DNA from: a virus
Virus record (IMG/VR): IMGVR_UViG_3300032431_000025
Location: 1-37,839 of that record
Direction: 5' to 3' (one strand)
DNA: 37,839 nt
Part shown: positions 3,156-36,221 of the stretch, in pieces
Layout of the letters: the number at the start of each line of letters is the position of its first letter
Position numbering within the stretch: position 1 is the first letter of the stretch
Notes under the pieces: generated by a model
What the model saw: the letters and a program-made list of their open reading frames with translations, nothing else
Told to the model about the DNA's origin: nothing
Database searches by the model: none
Position numbers and translations under genes: made by a program

Positions 3156-3575
3156 TTAGTTAGGGTTTGGAGTATTGGAATCTGGAGAAGACTCTTGTAG
3201 AAATGTACTAGTTTCTGGGATACCACACTCTAAGGCAATATCAAAAATCAGCATATCATCTACATCTATCAAGTCTTGGAGTTGTTGACCAAACCACCAG
3301 ATAACATATCTTCGATCGAACTTGATAAGGCATGAATGAGATTGGGGTGTACCGGGTCCCTCCCCTCTGTTTCCGTAGTAGGGAGGATCATCATATACAT
3401 TCAATGTCACGAAACACCCGCCTTCGGTCAGCATCTCCAAGTTAGGTCTGACATGATCCAATGGACTTAAACACCAGTCCTCTTCTGCTGCCTTTTCCCA
3501 ATACATTTCACATATACCGACTGAACTCCATAGAGAAGGATACTCAATCGCAGGATCGGAAATTGCATTATTCAT
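3156..3575 (-). CDS. hypothetical 139-aa acidic protein
   Basis: Unrecognised. From ATG 3575 it begins MNNAISDPAIEYPSLW and is rich in W, D and E, with the Gly/Pro patch DDPPYYGNRGEGPGTPQ and the aromatic run YVIWWFGQQLQDL. No membrane segment or signal peptide. An in-frame TTG at 3626 would add 17 residues, but ATG is preferred. It opposes its neighbours and diverges from the 116-aa gene at 3674, so the 100-bp gap between them must hold two promoters. Its transcript meets a strong inverted repeat at 3015-3049. Confidence 0.6.
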   Translation of the reverse strand: MNNAISDPAIEYPSLWSSVGICEMYWEKAAEEDWCLSPLDHVRPNLEMLTEGGCFVTLNVYDDPPYYGNRGEGPGTPQSHSCLIKFDRRYVIWWFGQQLQDLIDVDDMLIFDIALECGIPETSTFLQESSPDSNTPNPN

Positions 3576-3673
3576 GGTTATGTTGAGGTCTTGGAATCTG
3601 ATAAAATATTGGGGTAGCGATCGCAATCTTTGAACAGTGCGATCGCTTAATCAAATTCTAAAAGAGATAGAAA

Positions 3674-4024
3674 ATGACTAACAATAATTCTACTTCAAAT
3701 CCAGACACTAAAGAAACCCCAGAAGACAGCATAAGCGATTTGCTAGGGCAAGTATTCAGGCGTGCTATCGAACTAACTTACCTGCCTGATTTGATGACTA
3801 CTCGGCGACAACCGACAGGGATGGAGGATGCGTTATGGGATACAGTATGGGCTTACTCAGACGGATTACCCCAACAACGGATAGACCGGATGCTAGGCGG
3901 GAGATGTTCTTTTTCCGCTCTTTTAGCATTTGATTTAGAAGAAGAAGAAAAACAACTTTTAAAAGATTTAGAAGATTTCAAGAAATACGAACCCGGAGCT
4001 ATGAATGTAGCAAGGGTGTACTAG
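3674..4024 (+). CDS. hypothetical 116-aa protein
   Basis: Unrecognised. It has a polar, disordered-looking N terminus (MTNNNSTSNPDTKETPEDS), a helical middle with IDRMLGGRCSFSALLAF, and an acidic helix near the end (DLEEEEKQLLKDLEDFKKYE). Soluble; no enzymatic motif. The ATG at 3674 has AAAGAGAT nearby as a weak ribosome site. It lies alone between a divergent gene and the second structured leader, in the accessory stretch between terminase and portal. Confidence 0.6.
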   Translation: MTNNNSTSNPDTKETPEDSISDLLGQVFRRAIELTYLPDLMTTRRQPTGMEDALWDTVWAYSDGLPQQRIDRMLGGRCSFSALLAFDLEEEEKQLLKDLEDFKKYEPGAMNVARVY

Positions 4025-4086
4025 GGGGTTGGTATCCTCACTGGGCTGCAAGACTCATCCCTTAGTTTTGCCCTGGGGATTAAATT

Positions 4087-4185
4087 CTGGTAAAATAGAA
4101 TCACTAGTCCGGCGCGGGATGTTTCAAGCACCCCTGCCGTTAATCAACTAGCAATATTTTCACCCGAAAAAGGCGGGTTACTCAT
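4087..4185 (+). promoter_or_regulatory. promoter plus structured leader, copy 2
   Basis: Second copy of the element at 2255..2353, the same 99 bp from CTG to the start codon. A fair promoter is visible: TTGCCC, 17 bp, TAAAAT (4091-4096). The CTAGT/ACTAG, CGGC/GCCG and ACCCG/CGGGT stems are kept, and the loop AAAAAGG carries the ribosome site before ATG 4186. Confidence 0.7.
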
Positions 4186-4890
4186 ATGACTAATATAGTA
4201 CGTTTTAATGACCTCTCAGATTCTGGTATCCGATTGACCGATGATGGGCGGTTTTCCGTTCTTGATGTAATTGAATTTTGTGGAAAGAAAAATCCTAGTG
4301 ATGCATGGAAAGCATTATCAGATCAGCATTCTGAGGTTCTCGGAAAAAGCGACAACTTCAAATTCCCCGGCAGAGGGCAAAGATTTACCCCAGTAGCAAA
4401 TAGAGAAAATATTCTCTACATCATTGGCTTGCTACCCGGAGCCATCGGTCGATCGTACCGAGAGGAATCTGCTAAGGTATTCCTGCAATATCTTGATGCA
4501 TCCCCTGAATTAGCTGAGTCGGTTATCGATCGAGCCACGCCCGAAGATTTAAAAAGGATTCAAGCCCGGCTTAAAGGCAAACAAATCAGGACTACTTTTA
4601 CCTCAGTATTGCTAGATCATGGGGTGACTGAGGGCTGGCAGTTTGCAAGATGCACTGATGCAATCTACAAGCCAATCTTGGGAGGCTCCACCCAAGTAGT
4701 TAAATCAGAAAGGGGATTAGCCAAGAAAGCTAACCTGAGAGATGAGATCGATGAGTTTGAACTAACTCAGGTGATGTTTGCAGAATCCTTGGCAGAGCGA
4801 AAGATTAAGAAAGAGCAGTTGAAGGGGTTCGATCAATGCGAATCCGCCGCCGCCGAATCAGCAAGAAAGGTTAAGGAAATCTCTGATTAA
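4186..4890 (+). CDS. Bro-type phage antirepressor
   Basis: Predicted DNA-binding regulator of the phage antirepressor class. The N-terminal part (RFSVLDVIEFCGKKNPSDAW, then YREESAKVFLQYL) fits a Bro-N domain. The C-terminal part (KGKQIRTTFTSVLLDHGV, DAIYKPILGGS, KANLRDEIDEFELTQVMFAE) follows the pattern of the C-terminal domain of Bro/antirepressor proteins of temperate phages, where an R-T-T-x-T stretch precedes YKPLFG and KKxNLRD. At 234 aa it is full length. Such proteins usually counteract a repressor to favour lytic growth. Its structured leader is shared with the 2354 gene, implying co-regulation, perhaps by the same protein or by translational control. Confidence 0.8.
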   Translation: MTNIVRFNDLSDSGIRLTDDGRFSVLDVIEFCGKKNPSDAWKALSDQHSEVLGKSDNFKFPGRGQRFTPVANRENILYIIGLLPGAIGRSYREESAKVFLQYLDASPELAESVIDRATPEDLKRIQARLKGKQIRTTFTSVLLDHGVTEGWQFARCTDAIYKPILGGSTQVVKSERGLAKKANLRDEIDEFELTQVMFAESLAERKIKKEQLKGFDQCESAAAESARKVKEISD

Positions 4891-6195: not shown

Positions 6196-6278
6196 AAAAC
6201 CCACTAAAACAGTTAAAAAACAACACATTCAAAACATCGCAAGATATAGAGAATCTATCACCCCTGCATTTTTCTGAT

Positions 6279-6317
6279 CTTGATCAAGCGGAAACCACCC
6301 GCCCCGATCGATAGCCT
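6279..6317 (+). promoter_or_regulatory. late promoter 1 (before head operon)
   Basis: Palindrome CTTGATCAAG (6279-6288), then CGGAAA, 17 bp, then the -10-like TAGCCT (6312-6317). The palindrome centre would lie near -41, as for a class II activator site. A TTGAGGA ribosome site follows before ATG 6340. Confidence 0.8.
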
Positions 6318-6339
6318 AGAGGTTATTGAGGATTTTATT

Positions 6340-6441
6340 ATGATGATTGCGATCGCCGTCCTAGCTCTATTTCTCGCTCTATTTCTATTTCTGTCATTTT
6401 TAATTATCCGGTTCCTAGACAATCATCAGGGATTCCATTAA
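6340..6441 (+). CDS. 33-aa single-span membrane peptide
   Basis: A very short frame, MMIAIAVLALFLALF continuing hydrophobic to IIRFLD, then a short polar tail. It is essentially one transmembrane helix. It deserves a call because its ATG sits 51 bases after the palindrome of a late promoter with a GAGGA ribosome site 9 bases upstream, the same geometry as the other late-promoter-first genes. Its role is unknown; small phage membrane peptides of this kind may act in lysis or at the membrane during assembly, but nothing in the sequence decides this. Too short for homology to help. Confidence 0.55.
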   Translation: MMIAIAVLALFLALFLFLSFLIIRFLDNHQGFH

Positions 6442-8001: not shown

Positions 8002-8317
8002 AGTAATCCAAGTCCCCCCGATCGACCCCCCGCCGATCGATGACCCGGATAATGATTTGACCATCTTTGAAAGATATCACCGTGAACTTTGGGGAAACGA
8101 TTCCCCATCGATCGCCAGAATAAACAGAGCATTAGAAATCTATGAGGATCATCTAAAACACAAAGTCCCCACTGAGTCACAAGCCAAATTAATTAGTGAA
8201 ATCCAAGACCTGCTAAGAATGGTAGTTCCCAAGCTAGAAGTAGGGAGCGGATTACTACCCCCGGAAACTTTAGTCAACTTTCTTCAAGAATGGGATGCCA
8301 TGATTTCAGAGCATTAA
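7913..8317 (+). CDS. hypothetical 134-aa head-module protein
   Basis: Unrecognised. It starts at ATG 7913 inside the portal gene, overlapping it by 89 bases in another frame, and has a Pro/Gln-rich N terminus (MTSPQPIDPLQTQAQPIEPL) encoded by the same CCGATCGA-type repeats that encode the portal tail. A folded-looking helical part follows (TIFERYHRELWG, IARINRALEIYEDHL, LISEIQDLLRMVVPKLE). An alternative TTG start at 7988 would nearly remove the overlap. Position between portal and scaffold suggests a head-assembly or minor head role; that is inference only. Confidence 0.6.
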   Translation: MTSPQPIDPLQTQAQPIEPLLSQAPLSQAEVIQVPPIDPPPIDDPDNDLTIFERYHRELWGNDSPSIARINRALEIYEDHLKHKVPTESQAKLISEIQDLLRMVVPKLEVGSGLLPPETLVNFLQEWDAMISEH

Positions 8318-8327
8318 ATTTTCTGAT

Positions 8328-8366
8328 CTTGATCAAGCGGAAAACTTCTGAATCGATCGCTAGGCT
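8328..8366 (+). promoter_or_regulatory. late promoter 2 (before scaffold gene)
   Basis: CTTGATCAAG at 8328-8337, CGGAAA, 17 bp, TAGGCT at 8361-8366. It overlaps an upstream in-frame start candidate for the scaffold gene, which supports the later ATG at 8392. Confidence 0.8.
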
Positions 8367-8391: not shown

Positions 8392-8994
8392 ATGGATTTC
8401 TCTCAGGTTTTGGATTTTTTGAAGGATCAAGAAGACGGGGCTGCAATGGCTACGGCGATCGCAACCAAGATCACCGCCTTAAATAATGAGGCCGCACAAT
8501 GGCGGGTAAAACTTAGAGAATCAGAATCGGAGTTGGGACGTATTCAAGAATTGAGCGGGGGTGATAGTAAAGCCTTAGAAGGAAAACTAACCGCCCTAAC
8601 TCAACAGCTAGAGGCTGCACAAGTCGAAACCAAGTCCGCCAAAGATTCTCAATCTGATGCGATCGCAAAAGAAGCGGGGTTAAGAAAAACCCTAATTCTC
8701 CAAGACGTAGCTACCAGAGCCGGTGCCGACCGCACCGCACTCACGGAGATCCTTCAAAATATCGAACCTGACAAGATACTGATTTCTGAAAATGGCATAA
8801 CCGTAGACGGTAAACCACTGACAGAATTTGCACAAGCAAAAGGCGACTGGGCTGTTAGGGCATTATTCCCGACCGCTCCGAAGCCAACACTACCCACTGG
8901 CGGGACTTCAGGACAAGCCCCTAAGAATCCGGTAGATGATTATTTTAAGAGTACTTACACCTTACCCAAGGCTAAAACTAATGCCCCAAGTTAA
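8392..8994 (+). CDS. scaffold-like coiled-coil head protein
   Basis: Predicted scaffolding or minor capsid protein that guides capsid assembly. Residues about 20-110 form a long coiled coil (ALNNEAAQWRVKLRESESELG ... LTALTQQLEAAQVETKSAKD). It is followed by a small domain with the pattern RTALTEILQNIEPDKI, ENGITVDGKPLTEFAQAK, WAVRALFP, which is common in phage scaffold-like proteins next to capsid genes, and a Pro/Gly linker ending in DDYFKSTY. I start it at ATG 8392, 55 bases after the late-promoter palindrome; the longer frame from 8290 would be translated from promoter DNA. It lies immediately upstream of decoration and capsid genes. No protease motif is seen. Confidence 0.75.
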   Translation: MDFSQVLDFLKDQEDGAAMATAIATKITALNNEAAQWRVKLRESESELGRIQELSGGDSKALEGKLTALTQQLEAAQVETKSAKDSQSDAIAKEAGLRKTLILQDVATRAGADRTALTEILQNIEPDKILISENGITVDGKPLTEFAQAKGDWAVRALFPTAPKPTLPTGGTSGQAPKNPVDDYFKSTYTLPKAKTNAPS

Positions 8995-13341: not shown

Positions 13342-13398
13342 TACGGCTTATTTATCTAGGCTATTTTCTAGACATCCCCCTGCTCTCGATTTCCTGAT

Positions 13399-13437
13399 CT
13401 TGATCAAGCGGAAAAAGTTAAGCCCCGCCATTAGGCT
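13399..13437 (+). promoter_or_regulatory. late promoter 3 (before sheath operon)
   Basis: CTTGATCAAG at 13399-13408, CGGAAA, 17 bp, TAGGCT at 13432-13437. It restarts late transcription after the leftward RHH gene. Confidence 0.8.
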
Positions 13438-15128: not shown

Positions 15129-15635
15129 ATGATTAAAACCGTATCTAACGCAAGTGTTTGGGTTAATGGGAATGTGCAAATTGGCACCTGCTCTGAGATC
15201 GAATTGCCAGAAATAAAACTACTTCTCGTTGAGCATGAAGGGCTAGGGGTCGTGGGGACGGTGGAAACTTTTGCAGGGATCGAAGCTATGGAGGCAACCT
15301 TCACATGGACTTCTTTTGATGCAACCACCTATAAGGCGATCGCTAACCCAACCCAGCCAGTGCAACTCCAAACAAGGGCAAGCCAGAAAACCACCACCCT
15401 GCTGGGGGATACAGAAACCCCGGTAGTAGTTTTCCTGTCTGGAATATTTAAGTCCATTCCCTTGGGGAAACTCAAAAAGGGGGAGACGATCGAACTCAGT
15501 TCAGAGATGTCCGTAAGCTATGTCCGACTTATTTTAGGGGGTGAGGAGCTACTAGAAATTGACGTTTTCTCCAACACTTACAGAGTCGCCGGGGCTGATA
15601 TCTTAAGCCAATTTAGGGCTAATTTAGGAATTTAA
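15129..15635 (+). CDS. tail tube protein, P2 FII-like
   Basis: 168-aa tube subunit forming the inner rigid cylinder. The sequence follows the P2 FII family: N-terminal N-x-x-V-W-V-N-G strand, CSEIELPEIKLLLVEHEGLGVVGTVE, then GIEAMEATFTW and a C-terminal beta barrel (VSYVRLILGGEELLEIDVFSN). Located directly after the sheath and before the assembly chaperone, the standard order. Confidence 0.92.
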   Translation: MIKTVSNASVWVNGNVQIGTCSEIELPEIKLLLVEHEGLGVVGTVETFAGIEAMEATFTWTSFDATTYKAIANPTQPVQLQTRASQKTTTLLGDTETPVVVFLSGIFKSIPLGKLKKGETIELSSEMSVSYVRLILGGEELLEIDVFSNTYRVAGADILSQFRANLGI

Positions 15636-21941: not shown

Positions 21942-23522
21942 TTAGTAGGCTGCAAACCCTAAAGTTATTCCCTCACCATCGCAGTAGCCAAGCTCTAAAT
22001 CTTCTAGTTGGCAGAAGATTTCCCTAATCTCATTAGGGTTAATTTTCTTAGTCCCGGCGATATTATTCTGGACATCTCTAGCCTTGACCATCCCCTTAGA
22101 TTTTGATAGCTCTACAATTTCTTGCAGAGGGAACTCTAGATTTTGGCTTGGGGTATGGCTACTTATTCTAGAAATCTTGGCAGCCGGTTCGGGCGATCGC
22201 TCCAAGCAGGATTGAAGGAAATCTACCGGATTTGTTGAACTGGTAGAAGCGATCGAACTTGCAACAGATTTAGATATTTCTGGAATAATGCCAAGCTGCC
22301 CATCTACCAGACAAGCCCTAGGATTCGACTTAAGGATTGCCAGTGATTCAGTATCCCCAGAAATCTTTGCAGCTTTTTGGGCAGCCTTACCTAGGAGAAT
22401 CTGACAAAAATTATCCCTTTGGCTGCCCTTACCTTCTAGCCCTAGAATCTTCACCTCCGCCCCTTGACTCAATAGGATAATCCTCATCCCCACTTTTCTA
22501 GCCTCTTGTCCTAGCAGAATTAAACTATCTTTTACCGTTTCGGTGTTGGCAACGATCGAGGGGAACTCATCGATCGCAATTGTCAGGGGCTGCCAGTCCG
22601 TTCGGCCTTGACCACGATCCTGATAGCGTTTATCCATTTCAGTAGTCAGGGAATCAAAAGCGGTTTCAATCTCTTCATACCGCCTGCCCTTGCCGATGAC
22701 CGGGCGATTCTCCCAAGTCCCCGGCTTGTAGTGCGGATCTATAATCTGGATATTTGAATCATTAAAATGTTCAGATAGTAGCCAATTAGCCAAGGTAGAT
22801 TTACCCTCCCCAGTTGAGCCAACAATCATTAAATGGGGATACTGTTTTATCGATCGCCAGTCAAAATAATCAGGTGCGATCGCTGCCCCGGTTGCACTAT
22901 TCCCCCTGACAGGTTCGGGGCTTAATCCCCTTGGTGATTGCTGTTCTGGGATTTGGGTAGTAGTGCTATGCTGTGTTTCAGGAGCGGCAGAGAGTGCGTA
23001 AACTTGGTGGATTTGTTCCATAGCTCTATGGTGGTAGCGATCGTGCTGGTCATCTGGAACCCTTGATAAATCGATTTCTCTGATAGCAACTAAAAGCTGT
23101 GGCAACCATCCCTTACCCTCAATTAGATGGACAAAATCTACTCCAAATCTTTCTAAGGCCAAGTAGTGCAACTGCTCAAGCCCCGTGAGTTGTGGGAGTA
23201 AATCATGATCACCGGTGAATAATCCAAATTTAGGCAGAGCCTTGTTTTCTGTTGCCTCTGCATAGGTGTAGGATACCCAAGCTGCGATCGCCCCTGAACT
23301 CCCGCATAAGAAGGCTAAACCGATTAAGGGATTTAACCCTAATCCACCGCCAAGAATTAAACCAGCAAAGCCGGGCGTGGCAAGTAACCCGCAGCCAATT
23401 TTCCAGTTGTTACCAGATTCATAATTTAGGATCATCCGATCAACCTTGTCTAGCAGTTTCTCAGTGCGGGTTAGGGGCAAAGCCGGGGCGTAATCTTGAT
23501 AGCCCTCATACTCAATTATCAT
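21942..23522 (-). CDS. FtsK/HerA-type membrane-anchored DNA translocase ATPase
   Basis: 526-aa P-loop ATPase of the FtsK/HerA superfamily. Two hydrophobic segments near residues 45-85 (IGCGLLATPGFAGLILGGGL, LIGLAFLCGSSGAIAAWVS) anchor it. Walker A GSTGEGKST has K241; Walker B TIAIDEF has D318/E319; a sensor-like ILLSQGAEVKIL follows. The C terminus (EIVELSKSKGMVKARDVQNN) looks like a winged helix. I start it at ATG 23522, overlapping the upstream gene by 11 bases; a longer frame to 23687 only reads the neighbour's Pro/Ala repeats out of frame. Similar proteins move or pump DNA at membranes in plasmid and conjugative systems. Last gene of the ParM operon, so a role in segregation or transfer is inferred. 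Confidence 0.8.
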   Translation of the reverse strand: MIIEYEGYQDYAPALPLTRTEKLLDKVDRMILNYESGNNWKIGCGLLATPGFAGLILGGGLGLNPLIGLAFLCGSSGAIAAWVSYTYAEATENKALPKFGLFTGDHDLLPQLTGLEQLHYLALERFGVDFVHLIEGKGWLPQLLVAIREIDLSRVPDDQHDRYHHRAMEQIHQVYALSAAPETQHSTTTQIPEQQSPRGLSPEPVRGNSATGAAIAPDYFDWRSIKQYPHLMIVGSTGEGKSTLANWLLSEHFNDSNIQIIDPHYKPGTWENRPVIGKGRRYEEIETAFDSLTTEMDKRYQDRGQGRTDWQPLTIAIDEFPSIVANTETVKDSLILLGQEARKVGMRIILLSQGAEVKILGLEGKGSQRDNFCQILLGKAAQKAAKISGDTESLAILKSNPRACLVDGQLGIIPEISKSVASSIASTSSTNPVDFLQSCLERSPEPAAKISRISSHTPSQNLEFPLQEIVELSKSKGMVKARDVQNNIAGTKKINPNEIREIFCQLEDLELGYCDGEGITLGFAAY

Positions 23523-24318
23523 TAGTTTGACCTCCTGTAGGGGCTTTTGCTGCTGGGGGATTAGCGGTAGGAGCCTTAGGGCTTGGGGGATTAGCTGCCG
23601 GGGCTTTTGCTTGTGGTGGATTAGCTGTAGCAGATTGAGGCTTAGGGATATCTGCTGCCGGGGCTTTTGGCTGGGGGATGTCGGCATAATCCACTGGGTT
23701 AGAATTTCTTAGTTTGTCTTCCTGAAAACTAACAAACCAATCAAAGCCAAATTTGAATCCCCACAAGGCGATCGCTAGTTGGATAATTTTAATTGGCGTA
23801 ATTCCCTCTAACCAAGCTAGGAAAACGAACCCTACAAACTCGCAAATGGTGGCAATAAACCCAGCAACAATTATTGAATTATTGGTGCTTCTCTCCCCAG
23901 AAATCTTTACTTTCTTTTGAGCCTTTCTAAATTCCCGGTGTCCTTCAGTCTGGATATATTCGATCGTGGCTCCTAGCAGAACCGCCGTCAAAACAGTCAC
24001 TGCTACCCAAAAGTTACCTAGACTTGCCTCTAATCCCCTTGTCAGGCTACTTCTACTTAGTAACTTAAAATAGTTTTCGGCAGATAAACAGAAGGCATAA
24101 AACATTAAGAAACCACCGCAAATCACCTTGCCGTTTGCAATGAAACCCCAACATAAATGACCCACAAGGCTAAATATTGCCACTGGGATAACAAAGAGAA
24201 AATCGGCAATTTTGCCAACGGTCAGATGTGTCTTTACCTTGGCTCTTGGGGTGCTTACCGTAGTGGCTCTTGGGGTGCTTACCGTAGTCCGGTCAGTGAC
24301 GTCTCTCATTTCTCTCAT
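23512..24318 (-). CDS. multi-spanning membrane protein with Pro/Ala repeat tail
   Basis: 268 aa, unrecognised. The N terminus has an exact tandem repeat (TTVSTPRA twice; the DNA unit GGCTCTTGGGGTGCTTACCG also doubled). About four hydrophobic segments follow: IADFLFVIPVAIFSLVGHL, ICGGFLMFYAFCLSA, FWVAVTVLTAVLLGATI, IIVAGFIATICEFVGFVFLA. The last 60 residues are repeats of the kind KAPAANPP. It overlaps the ATPase gene by 11 bases and follows the 134-aa gene by four, so it is likely a partner of the ATPase, perhaps its membrane platform. AGGAG nine bases before ATG 24318 is the ribosome site. Confidence 0.7.
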   Translation of the reverse strand: MREMRDVTDRTTVSTPRATTVSTPRAKVKTHLTVGKIADFLFVIPVAIFSLVGHLCWGFIANGKVICGGFLMFYAFCLSAENYFKLLSRSSLTRGLEASLGNFWVAVTVLTAVLLGATIEYIQTEGHREFRKAQKKVKISGERSTNNSIIVAGFIATICEFVGFVFLAWLEGITPIKIIQLAIALWGFKFGFDWFVSFQEDKLRNSNPVDYADIPQPKAPAADIPKPQSATANPPQAKAPAANPPSPKAPTANPPAAKAPTGGQTNDN

Positions 24319-25313: not shown

Positions 25314-25439
25314 TTAGTTAGTTGTCACATGACTTAAGTCAGTCTCTGCAATCTGCTGGTAATCGGAACCTAGGTTGTAGTACCAGCCGGGGTGAATAGA
25401 TAGTTCTGGCTGACCGCTTTTATACTTGGCTTTGGGCAT
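25314..25439 (-). CDS. 41-aa protein, shortened paralogue of the next gene
   Basis: Not flagged by size but convincing: HPGWYYNLGSDYQQIAETDL matches RPGWYYDLDHEDRKQIAEADL of the 70-aa protein encoded just upstream (25439-25651). It starts at ATG 25439 overlapping that gene's stop (TAATG), so it arose by tandem duplication and lost the N-terminal half. It begins MPKAKYKSGQPELSI. Function unknown. Confidence 0.6.
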   Translation of the reverse strand: MPKAKYKSGQPELSIHPGWYYNLGSDYQQIAETDLSHVTTN

Positions 25440-25651
25440 TATTTTAGCCCTCCGTTTTGTTGGTCAAATTTAGTTTCGTATGCTGGTCTTAGATCGGCTT
25501 CGGCAATCTGCTTGCGATCCTCGTGATCTAGGTCGTAGTACCAGCCGGGACGAGCAAATAGCCTTGGTCGTTTGTAGGAGGCATCCTCGATTGTGAACCG
25601 GACTCCATCATAAATAACCGTTTCCCCATCTTCAAATTTACGTTCTGGCAT
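25439..25651 (-). CDS. hypothetical 70-aa protein
   Basis: From ATG 25651: MPERKFEDGETVIYDGVRFT, then a small beta-rich body and RPGWYYDLDHEDRKQIAEADL. The opening (F-x-D-G-E-x-V-x-Y-D-G-V-x-F) looks like a short SH3-like or KOW-like strand pair, and the WYYDL motif is duplicated in the 41-aa product. Start overlaps the 105-aa gene by 14 bases. A longer frame upstream to 25795 only reads that neighbour out of frame. Member of the ParM operon; role unknown. Confidence 0.6.
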   Translation of the reverse strand: MPERKFEDGETVIYDGVRFTIEDASYKRPRLFARPGWYYDLDHEDRKQIAEADLRPAYETKFDQQNGGLK

Positions 25652-25955
25652 TTTCTTGAACCTCCGTAAAGCAATAAACATCTTTGTATTCAATCGAGTC
25701 GCCGAGCATTCTTCGGACTTCAAAGCCATGCTTTTTCTCAAAGGACTGGCTAATGGCTTCTGCAACTGTCTTCGGGTCGTAGGAGTCCTTGACATAAAAG
25801 AGATTGTCAGTCCACAGACCGATCGCCGGATGGCTTTTTAGTTCAAGTAAGTCTGCTAAAACATCGGGATCGATCTCTCTGGCAAACTCAATTGCCACTA
25901 ATTTGTTAGCCAGTTTGACTACTACTGAGAATTTCGGTGTTATATCTCCAATCAT
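25638..25955 (-). CDS. hypothetical 105-aa protein
   Basis: Unrecognised. Alpha/beta pattern (KFSVVVKLANKLVAIEFAREI, VLADLLELKSHPAIGLWTD, LFYVKDSYDPKTVAEAISQSF, HGFEVRRML). Third gene of the ParM operon, starting 24 bases after the ParR-like stop behind a copy of the intergenic repeat (AAGTTGGGTTA at 25967-25977). No membrane or catalytic motif. Confidence 0.6.
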   Translation of the reverse strand: MIGDITPKFSVVVKLANKLVAIEFAREIDPDVLADLLELKSHPAIGLWTDNLFYVKDSYDPKTVAEAISQSFEKKHGFEVRRMLGDSIEYKDVYCFTEVQENART

Positions 25956-25979
25956 GATTTAGTTGTAAGTTGGGTTAAT

Positions 25980-26219
25980 TTAGAAGTCGATTATGGTTTC
26001 GAGATTCCCGATCGCTGCGGAAACAGATGGGGATTCAATTTCTTGCTTTTTCTCTAGGGGTGCGTGGAGGTCGCTATTTACCCAGTCTATTAAGTTCTGG
26101 GCGCATTTCTTAATCAGGAATCTTGCAGCCTCAGATCGGTTGCTACTCCTTAAAGCCTGACAAAGACTATCCAAAAGAACACGATCCTCCGCATCGAGAT
26201 CAACTTTTGTTCTAGTCAT
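25980..26219 (-). CDS. ParR-like RHH centromere-binding protein
   Basis: 79 aa from ATG 26219, overlapping the parM stop by eight bases. The first 45 residues (MTRTKVDLDAEDRVLLDSL, then SNRSEAARFLIKKCAQNLI) are a typical ribbon-helix-helix: strand TKVDL, helix 1, the N-x-S-E-A-A turn into helix 2. Its short acidic C terminus could contact the filament, as in ParR. In ParMRC systems the small RHH protein downstream of parM binds the centromere and couples it to ParM, and this gene has exactly that position and size. The identification is by context plus fold, not by close sequence match. Confidence 0.75.
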   Translation of the reverse strand: MTRTKVDLDAEDRVLLDSLCQALRSSNRSEAARFLIKKCAQNLIDWVNSDLHAPLEKKQEIESPSVSAAIGNLETIIDF

Positions 26220-27201
26220 TCTCACCCCCTATAATCGCCATGCCATTAACACTGGCAAAAACATGATTGGCAATCACCTTGAATCGGCCCTTTGTCTGCT
26301 CCTCAAAAGATTTAACCAAAGGAGCCGATCCGCCCGTGATCAAAACTTCAGAGAGGCGATCGTAAAAGGGGAGCCATTTAGCCCTAATCATTTTCCTGAT
26401 ATCTTCAGACCACGGTTCGAGAGCCTTGAGAAATTCTGCTTTGAAGTTATTCCCGGTCTCCCCTAGTTCATAGGTTCGATCGCCTATACCATCCATAATC
26501 AAATCTAGGGCCGGCTCGTACCCAAGTCTGGGAACTAGTAAGAAGGCGATCGACTGGGCTAAACCATCCGTGCCGGGCAGCTTTACGCTTGCTGATGTGA
26601 TTATGTCCCCGTCTGGCATAAATAGCTTTGCCAAACTAGTACCGCCACCAATGTCAATAATCCCATTTATTCTCCCCGGCTTTTGATACAAGCTTTGGTC
26701 GATCGCAAACTTGTAAGCGCCGTAACACTCATCGATAATCACTACTTTATTAACAGTAAATGTAATCTCTACCCCTTCACGGATAATGGTTTTAGTTCCC
26801 TCTAGAGACTTTAGGAAAGCCATGTTTTCAGAGTTCCTACTATCTGGAAGGGTGAGGATTAATTTGTTAATAACTAAAGGTAACTCACTGCCCTGAAATG
26901 GTTCGATCGCTGGCAGAACTAACAGATTGGCGATTTTTGATTTGTTATTCAAGAAAGTTGGCGCACCGCCTAAAGTTTTTGCTTTTTCGCCGATCGCATA
27001 CCGCTTTCCATCTACCGTTACTAAAACGGAAAACCGATTAGTTCTTACAGTCCCGTGTGATGGTTCTAACTGTTTTACGTAGCTAGGGATTTTGTGAGGT
27101 CTGCCGTTACGACCAGTGAATTTAATGTCCCGGTTTCCTGCATCGATCGCCACGAAATCAATTAGATGTGAGCTAAGCCTTGAGGCTGTTTGTTGTGCCA
27201 T
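26212..27201 (-). CDS. parM: ParM/StbA-like actin-family ATPase
   Basis: 329-aa actin-fold protein, expected to form filaments that push plasmid copies apart. Actin motifs in order: phosphate-1 FVAIDAGNRDIKF (16-28, D20), a connecting region, phosphate-2 IIDIGGGTSLAKL (181-193, D183), and adenosine motif VLITGGSAPLV (286-296). Length fits plasmid ParM/Alp proteins. It heads a ten-gene leftward operon. Upstream, tandem 11-bp repeats at 27307-27502 resemble parC. Phage- or prophage-borne actins are known (for example AlpC), so a role in moving phage DNA is an alternative to plasmid partition. Confidence 0.88.
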   Translation of the reverse strand: MAQQTASRLSSHLIDFVAIDAGNRDIKFTGRNGRPHKIPSYVKQLEPSHGTVRTNRFSVLVTVDGKRYAIGEKAKTLGGAPTFLNNKSKIANLLVLPAIEPFQGSELPLVINKLILTLPDSRNSENMAFLKSLEGTKTIIREGVEITFTVNKVVIIDECYGAYKFAIDQSLYQKPGRINGIIDIGGGTSLAKLFMPDGDIITSASVKLPGTDGLAQSIAFLLVPRLGYEPALDLIMDGIGDRTYELGETGNNFKAEFLKALEPWSEDIRKMIRAKWLPFYDRLSEVLITGGSAPLVKSFEEQTKGRFKVIANHVFASVNGMAIIGGEND

Positions 27202-27229
27202 ATAATTAAGGTAGTCTTTGATTTGAATA

Positions 27230-27262
27230 AACCCGTAGTTCGTAGCTCCGGGTTATTTTTTT
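27230..27262 (+). terminator. rightward intrinsic terminator upstream of parM
   Basis: AACCCG / CGGGTT stem followed by ATTTTTTT on the plus strand. No rightward gene precedes it, so it would stop a transcript antisense to the ParM operon or a short RNA from the parM leader region. Confidence 0.6.
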
Positions 27263-27306
27263 GCCTGTATCCCTGTCCTAAGCCCGCAGGACTTACTAGT
27301 TTTTGG

Positions 27307-27502
27307 GGATACGTGGTGGCTGTGTTGTGGTTACACGGTGGTTACGCAGTGGGTTTTTAAGTATTCCTACTTGGGTTTGCTTGGGGTTGCTGGTTGCCTT
27401 AGCTTATAAGTGGTTAGGGCTTTTTGGCTGATATCGCTTAACCCGTTGCGTACCTGTCTTGGTTGCACTGTGTACCCGTTGTGTAACCTTTCTGTACCTA
27501 TA
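27307..27502. repeat. parC-like arrays of 11-bp repeats
   Basis: Left array at 27307-27350: four 11-mers in register, GGATACGTGGT, GGCTGTGTTGT, GGTTACACGGT, GGTTACGCAGT. Right array at about 27437-27502: units CTTAACCCGTT, GCGTACCTGTC, (one degenerate), GTGTACCCGTT, GTGTAACCTTT, CTGTACCTATA, also at 11-bp steps and in the opposite orientation (GTGTAACC is the complement of GGTTACAC). An 86-bp core lies between. Two arrays of 11-bp iterons flanking the promoter region are the plan of R1 parC. The 409-bp gap between genes holds this, a terminator and a promoter for the 27611 gene. Confidence 0.7.
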
Positions 27503-27610
27503 CTATGCTAGGACTATAAAATAGTCAAGCAATTAAATGAAATTGTCGCTTAATTGCATTTTCAGACAGGTAGAGAATAGGATTAAGACAGTACTTAAAA
27601 ACAGAGAATC

Positions 27611-27862
27611 ATGAAAAGCAACCCGGAAAAAGTTCAAATTACTGTCGGAGAATATTATGTCTTTTTACTGAAGTGGGACTGCTGGATTAATGGACGATCA
27701 AAAAGTGGGCAAGCCGGCTCCTTGCTCTGCTCAAAACTTCAAGAGAGAGAACAAAGAATAATTGAACGATTAGATTTTTTGGCAAGGATTAGAAATATGT
27801 CAGTCGAGGAGCTAAAAATGGCGATCGTTAATGGCGGGGGGATAGAGCAAGCAGAGGAATAA
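27611..27862 (+). CDS. hypothetical 83-aa protein
   Basis: Unrecognised. It begins MKSNPEKVQITVGEYYVFLL, with a basic middle (NGRSKSGQAGSLLCSKLQ) and a charged helix (REQRIIERLDFLARIRNMSVEEL). Rightward, opposite to its neighbours on both sides, with its promoter next to the right half of the parC-like arrays (GGACTATAAAAT at about 27511-27522) and a strong terminator after it. Binding at parC could therefore affect it too. Confidence 0.6.
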   Translation: MKSNPEKVQITVGEYYVFLLKWDCWINGRSKSGQAGSLLCSKLQEREQRIIERLDFLARIRNMSVEELKMAIVNGGGIEQAEE

Positions 27863-31020: not shown

Positions 31021-31030
31021 ATCAGAAAAT

Positions 31031-31918
31031 CTAGAGGGTTTCGATCGCATCTTCGATAAATCCATCGTGCAAAAATCTGCCGTTGTGCATCACGAACGGG
31101 CGGGAATTATAAATTTCTACTCCATTATGGAAAAACCGCCCATCGTGAAGATTTGCTGCCATAGGGTCGTACAGAAGATTAGTAGTTAGGGATAACTCCA
31201 AAGCATCGGAAATATTTATATTGGCTGTGGGGGTGGAACTGAAGAAAATGTCTAGCAGGTGCGATCGGGCATTTTTCCACTCCTCTATCAGCTTGGAAAT
31301 TAAATCTATGTTTGCAGCCGTTAATTCCTTGGCTCCAATATTTAGATCAACCTCAAAGGAATAAGGCAGGCGGCTGCCAGAACCTAAACCATCATAATTA
31401 AACCGTCCGTTGTACAGAAATCCGTATTCATTCTCCCCATAGGTTTGAGAACCATCATGATTAAACCGGCCATCATGATCAAAGACTGCCTCAACTAAAC
31501 CCTGCCCATCATGGAATAAATAATTATTTAACCCGATCGCTACGGTCGAACCATCATAATTAAATAGCCCATCATATCGGAAAACCCTGACTGGATTCTC
31601 TATGACCACCGCCGCTAGAAATCCTACAGCCCGAAGCGATCGCTCAATGGAGTATGGAGTCCCGGCGTGTTTGTGTAATTCGATCGCCAGCTTTAATAGT
31701 TCTCTTTTTTGGGATTCAGAATCAGCCAAGAGCCAACCCCTGTAACCCATCACATTTAACTCCTCTGCTAGATGGGGTAAGACAGAACTATGGACATTAT
31801 CAAAATCCCAGACCTCTAAAACTCCAAGGTCGATCGCCTCTAGCTCACCTAGAATCGATTGCAGAAAGGCTCTAAACCTCTGGTCATTAATAGCCGGGGG
31901 GAGTGGAAAATCAACCAT
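31031..31918 (-). CDS. baseplate/tail protein gpI-like with DG repeats
   Basis: 295 aa. The N-terminal half follows P2 gpI: LPPAINDQRFRAFLQSILGE, VLPHLAEELNVMGYRGWLL, KRELLKLAIELHKHAGTPYS, which connects wedge to fibre. Residues about 115-185 and 262-290 contain repeated (H/Y)DG motifs, for example FNYDG, FHDG, DHDGRFNHDG, YNGRFNYDG, LHDGRFFHNG, HNGRFLHDG, not part of the family core. The conserved C-terminal piece (AANIDLISKLIEEWKNARSHL) lies between them. GGAG six bases before ATG 31918, overlapping the gpJ stop. Confidence 0.82.
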   Translation of the reverse strand: MVDFPLPPAINDQRFRAFLQSILGELEAIDLGVLEVWDFDNVHSSVLPHLAEELNVMGYRGWLLADSESQKRELLKLAIELHKHAGTPYSIERSLRAVGFLAAVVIENPVRVFRYDGLFNYDGSTVAIGLNNYLFHDGQGLVEAVFDHDGRFNHDGSQTYGENEYGFLYNGRFNYDGLGSGSRLPYSFEVDLNIGAKELTAANIDLISKLIEEWKNARSHLLDIFFSSTPTANINISDALELSLTTNLLYDPMAANLHDGRFFHNGVEIYNSRPFVMHNGRFLHDGFIEDAIETL

Positions 31919-33721: not shown

Positions 33722-33743
33722 AATAAAAACCTCAATAATTTTA

Positions 33744-33782
33744 AGGCTACTTAGAGCGGCGGTGGTTTTCCGCTTGATCAAG
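33744..33782 (-). promoter_or_regulatory. late promoter 5 (before PAAR-gp25-J-I)
   Basis: CTTGATCAAG (33773-33782), CGGAAA, 17 bp, TAGCCT (33744-33749, minus strand). Nearly identical to promoter 4 through to the TTGAGG ribosome site. Confidence 0.8.
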
Positions 33783-33813
33783 ATCAGAAAATGGGAGGCA
33801 ACTAGAGAATAGT

Positions 33814-36080: not shown

Positions 36081-36086
36081 GAAACA

Positions 36087-36125
36087 AGCCTACCTAGAGC
36101 GGCGGTGGTTTTCCGCTTGATCAAG
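36087..36125 (-). promoter_or_regulatory. late promoter 6 (before gpU)
   Basis: CTTGATCAAG (36116-36125), CGGAAA, 17 bp, TAGGCT (36087-36092, minus strand). It lacks the leader that follows the other five copies. Confidence 0.8.
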
Positions 36126-36221
36126 ATCAGAAAATCTAGACTTCAACTTGAAAATCCCCTGAGAAAAAGAGAAGATTAAAATAAAGCGATTAGGTGCTTT
36201 TAGCCCCCTAAAAATTCCCCT

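Follow-up and report, generated by a model that had tools for sequence, protein, structure and literature searches.

We found that two arrays of 11-bp repeats, lying in opposite orientations upstream of an actin-like parM gene, probably form the parC centromere of an actin-type (type II) partition system, by which a phage of cyanobacteria would persist as a low-copy plasmid. The stretch analyzed here, referred to as the window, comprises the 37,839 bases of an IMG/VR virus record; relatives extend past its right end, so the record is a fragment. The initial annotation had proposed a parC-like centromere on the plan of plasmid R1. The centromere reading stands as the best explanation, in view of the accompanying parM–parR pair and the 11-bp period kept in the sibling phage L099, but the R1 plan does not.

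Two opposed arrays of 11-bp repeats

27307..27350, plus strand: left, parM-proximal array of four 11-bp units
27351..27436: spacer between the arrays
27437..27502, minus strand (opposite orientation): right, promoter-proximal array, with five of six consecutive 11-bp slots occupied

The left array consists of GGATACGTGGT, GGCTGTGTTGT, GGTTACACGGT and GGTTACGCAGT, at positions 27307, 27318, 27329 and 27340, in exact register, the second unit being weak; read on the parM strand, the units are CGTAACCACCG, TGTAACCACAA, CACAGCCACCA and CGTATCCCCAA. Its lag-11 identity is 0.63, and its period-11 score is unmatched anywhere else in the 37.8-kb window. When compared with dinucleotide shuffles of the intergenic region, the score was reached in 0 of 2000 at period 11, and at a frequency of 0.0025 for any period from 8 to 15. 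The right array, taken in the phase of GTGTACCCGTT, runs from 27437 to 27502 as CTTAACCCGTT, GCGTACCTGTC, TTGGTTGCACT, GTGTACCCGTT, GTGTAACCTTT and CTGTACCTATA, of which TTGGTTGCACT is a slot with no match; the corresponding shuffle values are 0 of 2000 and 0.0015. Eleven is the best period of both arrays. Four degenerate in-register 11-mers on the left and five clear units at 11-bp steps on the right had been described initially, and our tests bear out both counts, the latter as five of six slots, with the register maintained through the degenerate units.

The opposite orientation of the arrays was likewise confirmed. The best match elsewhere of the reverse-complemented left array over 22 nt is 17 of 22, at 27467 within the right array (0 of 1000 shuffles), and a repeat search returned an inverted pair of 23 nt between the arrays that is 78% complementary. 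A weight matrix was built from the four left-array units, and its tandem score failed to distinguish the right array; the arrays are thus related, but loosely and in degenerate form. That they are a chance or decayed repeat is scarcely credible: the units are degenerate and one right-array slot has no match, but the shuffle tests, together with an 11-bp array that recurs independently in the leader of L099, rule this out.

ParM and its predicted ribbon-helix-helix partner

26212..27201, minus strand: ParM-like actin ATPase, 329 aa (Pfam ALP_N, E 6e-14)
25980..26225, minus strand: ParR-like adaptor, 81 aa, predicted ribbon-helix-helix (RHH) domain and disordered C-terminal tail, overlapping the end of parM
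27611..27862, plus strand: divergent 83-aa gene of a family found on cyanobacterial plasmids
23512..24318, minus strand: 268-aa membrane protein of a par-adjacent, plasmid-type operon, 83% identical in L099
21942..23687, minus strand: FtsK/HerA-like ATPase in the same operon

The window ParM shares 28–38% identity with proteins annotated as ParM/StbA on cyanobacterial plasmids. A profile of these proteins matches solved ParMs (pSK41 ParM, 3js6, E 1e-14), and the invariant DxGN, GGGT and GGS positions of the nucleotide-binding motifs are conserved. The morphogenetic actin FcmB was considered as an identity and rejected, the protein scoring 19.8 bits against a cut-off of 300 for NCBIfam NF052678.

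The AlphaFold model of the 81-aa protein has a mean pLDDT of 72, rising to about 90 at residues 11–40, and comprises a short N-terminal stretch, helices at residues 12–25 and 30–52, and a disordered C-terminal tail. Almost every fold match is an RHH protein (CopG, NikR, MazE, ParD, Arc and TacA), and the matches point to the RHH class in general; no ParR structure is among the matches listed. The protein belongs to no Pfam family, its sequence matches are weak, and a profile search of solved structures gave no match below E 0.5. It is 31% identical to the ParR of L099 (BLASTP E 6e-5), and a small gene downstream of parM is present in the plasmid relatives too. ParR is known to bind the direct repeats of parC as RHH dimers (PMC9426499), and the 81-aa protein, as modeled, has the build of ParR proteins. 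The window holds defining features of a type II (ParMRC) system, namely an actin-like ParM, a downstream RHH adaptor and repeats upstream of parM, where the adaptor is recognized by its gene overlap and its RHH-type model and fold matches, the sequence evidence being weak.

The predicted promoter lies outside both arrays

27500..27528, minus strand: predicted parM promoter, sigma-70-like, TTGACT-17-TAGTAT (promoter scan, 0.9 expected by chance)
27512..27526: perfect inverted repeat GACTATaaaATAGTC overlying the predicted promoter, a candidate operator of another regulator

The sigma-70-like promoter at 27528..27500 is the only one that the scan found; it lies beyond both arrays, and the spacer contains none. 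Taken alone, the prediction is at chance level. The sibling L099 has a stronger promoter (TTGACA-17-TATATT, 11/12 match) in the same layout, also outside its arrays. The arrays would thus lie in the parM leader instead of flanking the promoter, and they are inverted; the initial view of arrays placed around the parMR promoter as in R1 is not upheld in either phage. The right array starts at the predicted −10 element and extends into the leader, so that ParR bound there should repress parM–parR. The palindrome over the window promoter has the form GACTAT-3-ATAGTC, and L099 carries a different one, AATAGATT-8-AATCTATT, at the equivalent place.

A leader position raises the question of whether the arrays act as RNA, their mutual pairing controlling parM expression. 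Folding of the predicted leader is more favorable than that of shuffled sequence (z −2.4, 3 of 200), with the arrays paired to each other in the model. However, two related inverted arrays would pair anyway, pairing does not need an 11-bp register, the second set in L099 has two units only, and an Rfam search of the region gave no match, nor anything else of note. We consider control by RNA pairing very improbable. Separately, the plus strand carries at 27230–27265, just upstream of the parM start, a hairpin (AACCCG...CGGGTT) with a run of seven T after it; this element is terminator-like and directed against parM.

The 11-bp period is kept in a sibling phage

Over the tail genes, the DNA of L099 (IMGVR_UViG_3300032431_000029) matches that of the window at about 88% identity. 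Protein identity is 80.5% for a 169-aa gene, 57% for the divergent gene, 37% for ParM and 31% for ParR; beyond ParR it is, in order, 56%, 79%, 83%, 75% for the N-terminal part of the ATPase and 23% for its C-terminal part. Identity of the intergenic DNA is at shuffle level (0.534, against a shuffle mean of 0.516 and maximum of 0.542).

The parM leader of L099 nevertheless contains an array of four 11-bp units, AAAGAAACCAC AAAGCAACCAC AAAGCAACCAT AAACCAACCAA, at 15532–15575, which begins just past the promoter and has a score of 0.85 (0 of 1000 shuffles at any period). Its units are 62.5% identical to those of the window left array (p 0.002); CGTAACCACCG / TGTAACCACAA of the window align with AGAAACCACAA / AGCAACCACAA of L099, and an ACCAC core is common to both. 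The initial annotation had staked its reading on the 11-bp periodicity persisting in related elements, and it does so here, in intergenic DNA that is otherwise unalike. That the period and the ACCAC core endure amid turnover of everything else fits an array of protein-binding sites, not chance. A second, opposed set in L099, about 100 bp further on, has two GGTT units 11 bp apart (p about 0.02–0.04); the sibling hence backs the two-array plan less strongly than it does the period.

The par modules of the two phages (window 25400–27862, L099 15057–17226) are strongly diverged, as if the module had been replaced, and incompatibility could drive such replacement. The ATPase (window 21942–23687, L099 18552–20201) keeps its N-terminal part and differs in its C-terminal part, in the manner of a domain swap. 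A C5 cytosine DNA methylase (L099 3077–4150) is present in sibling phages just past the window end. A dispersed repeat of about 28–70 bp occurs in the window at 31030–31037, 33743–33803, 36086–36140, 6259–6342, 8315–8346 and 13383–13417, and recurs in the sibling phages too.

Which protein binds the arrays

Given the divergent gene beside the promoter, we considered that the arrays might be operators of the 83-aa protein, acting as a regulator of the par locus, with no centromere present. Nostoc plasmids provide a precedent. Among their loci (L005–L008, L032, L038, L039, L051 and L052), which have arrays of 8–10 bp, a short tandem array before the parM promoter varies in step with a divergent RHH gene, while parM and parR are unchanged and the leader between promoter and parM stays 90–96% identical. 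Identity of the promoter array is 0.95 in the 6 pairs with like divergent genes and 0.53 in the 49 unlike pairs. Arrays of this kind resemble operators for the divergent protein, although physical linkage alone could explain the pattern. An 11-bp array is also found at the parM promoter of locus L045, which encodes a 48% homologue of the 83-aa protein. The Nostoc leader of about 150 bp before parM may itself be a centromere or an RNA element.

The placement differs in the phages, where the arrays are downstream of the predicted promoter, in the leader, whereas those of the Nostoc plasmids and L045 are over or upstream of it. The separate palindromes over the window and L099 promoters would serve as operators. 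Moreover, a two-sequence model of the 83-aa protein gave no fold match, neither to RHH nor to any other DNA-binding fold, its plasmid relatives are located away from any parM, and the Nostoc linkage may reflect neighborhood only. We therefore regard operators of the 83-aa protein as an unlikely account of the arrays.

A comparison of two further loci, L013 and L037, bears on the same point. Their ParM and ParR are 88% and 78% identical and their divergent genes are unrelated (17%); a 10-bp array in the leader, GTNACCAC, is kept, and the DNA upstream of the array is not (46%). Leader arrays thus go with ParM and ParR. In the window and in L099 the arrays fall between the predicted promoter and parM, and both promoters have palindromes of their own; this favors ParR as the binder of the arrays, the weak point being the chance-level prediction of the window promoter.

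Searches for the window units in other relatives were negative. Their weight matrix found no significant site clusters outside the window, and for counts of the cores GTGGTTA and GGTTAC the p-values were small in L018, L013, L037 and L021 alone, which is unconvincing given about 43 loci. Single-protein scans of viral contigs (ParM, the 83-aa protein and the ATPase) and of genome contigs (ParM) returned no relatives; the relatives of these three proteins came from alignments and plasmid tblastn. One locus, L014, contains at 3524–4789 a ParM-like ORF with an N-terminal extension of ~110 aa that includes an RHH-like stretch, possibly a fused adaptor. The only other exact match of GGTTACRYRGTGGTTACRYRGT in viral contigs is at 8477–8498 of L103, a 46.7-kb contig with no blastn similarity to the window.

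The phage, its host and its replicon

The window encodes a terminase, major head protein, tail sheath, tape measure, baseplate and tail fibers, and is thus from a phage with a contractile tail. The octamer GCGATCGC, the cyanobacterial HIP1 motif, occurs 46 times, which makes a cyanobacterium the most likely host.

The window fragment has no replication gene and no XerC-like recombinase among its genes. The L099 record has both: its plasmid replication protein is of the CyRepA1 family (E 7e-107, above the cut-off), its tyrosine recombinase is XerC-like, and the two are combined with parMR and tail genes; the window combines phage genes with parMR. The operon beside par, of membrane proteins and the FtsK/HerA-like ATPase, is of plasmid type. 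Together with the CyRepA1 and Xer genes of the sibling and with parMR, it makes a phage-plasmid the natural reading, and from L099 we infer that the window phage carries the same replication gene. Relatives of the terminase, at 30–52% identity, have no parM; these relatives are distant or fragments.

Alternatively, the module may serve the lytic cycle by moving or positioning phage DNA during replication, in the manner of AlpC/AlpA of prophage CGP3, with no role in plasmid partition. CGP3 provides an example of a phage actin whose promoter region contains repeats (PMC5539076, PMC4446434), and the window has a set of tail and head genes. The relatives of the module, however, sit on cyanobacterial plasmids, the adjoining membrane-protein/ATPase operon is plasmid-like, and L099 has a plasmid replication gene. 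We judge a lytic role to be quite unlikely, and favor partition of a plasmid state.

Proposed mechanism and significance

In the partition mechanism that we propose, dimers of the 81-aa RHH protein would bind the 11-bp units, one per helical turn, and so align along a single face of the DNA. Covered by ParR, the arrays would cap and seed ParM filaments, whose growth would push sister genomes apart, and ParR at the right array would also repress parM–parR. More speculatively, the partition module may turn over as a unit between close phage-plasmids through incompatibility, with a centromere of two mirror-image 11-bp arrays whose mirrored polarity might let two antiparallel ParM filaments hold one genome; we think this extension doubtful.

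The device itself is known, and what is new is probably its carrier, a virus of cyanobacteria. Cyanobacterial phages living as plasmids are little known, and the literature searched reports no ParMRC centromere for a cyanobacterial phage-plasmid; glacial phage-plasmids described earlier have ParA/ParB, not ParM (PMC4490671). As phages with the same tail genes and different par modules, the siblings offer a natural experiment on what determines centromere specificity and incompatibility. The arrays are also a concrete site for building stable vectors in filamentous cyanobacteria.

Comparison with known systems

The closest named relatives of the window ParM are the ParM/StbA proteins of Calothrix, Allocoleopsis and Nostoc plasmids, which share the order of a small divergent gene, parM and a small downstream gene; their arrays have other periods (8–10 bp) and often lie over the promoter. 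FcmB/FcmC (and CorM) of filamentous cyanobacteria also pair a plasmid-partition-derived actin with a small downstream partner (PMC12645912), but are chromosomal and control cell shape, and the window ParM is not FcmB. The AlpC/AlpA/alpS system of the Corynebacterium prophage CGP3 has a phage actin, a DNA-binding adaptor and repeated sites in the promoter region (PMC5539076); it acts in replication of an integrated prophage, and its site is TTAAnnG, not 11-bp iterons. The Bacillus phage-plasmid vB_BtS_B83 has a ParM, an RHH adaptor unlike classical ParR, and iterons before parM (PMC6669507), but in another host phylum and another type of phage, that of the window having a contractile tail.

With R1 ParMRC the window shares an actin-type ParM, a small downstream RHH adaptor and, ahead of parM, 11-bp units in two sets of about five each. 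The parC of R1 has ten direct repeats flanking the promoter (Dam & Gerdes 1994, cited in PMC9426499; PMC4949242), whereas the window sets are inverted and both lie between the predicted promoter and parM. The two 11-bp iteron sets of an R1-type parC are thus present, while their common direction is absent and, by the promoter prediction, so is the flanking arrangement. Resemblance of the window units to the R1 iterons is not above that of shuffles. The window site would work in the manner of ParMRC, yet strictly speaking it is no R1-type parC.
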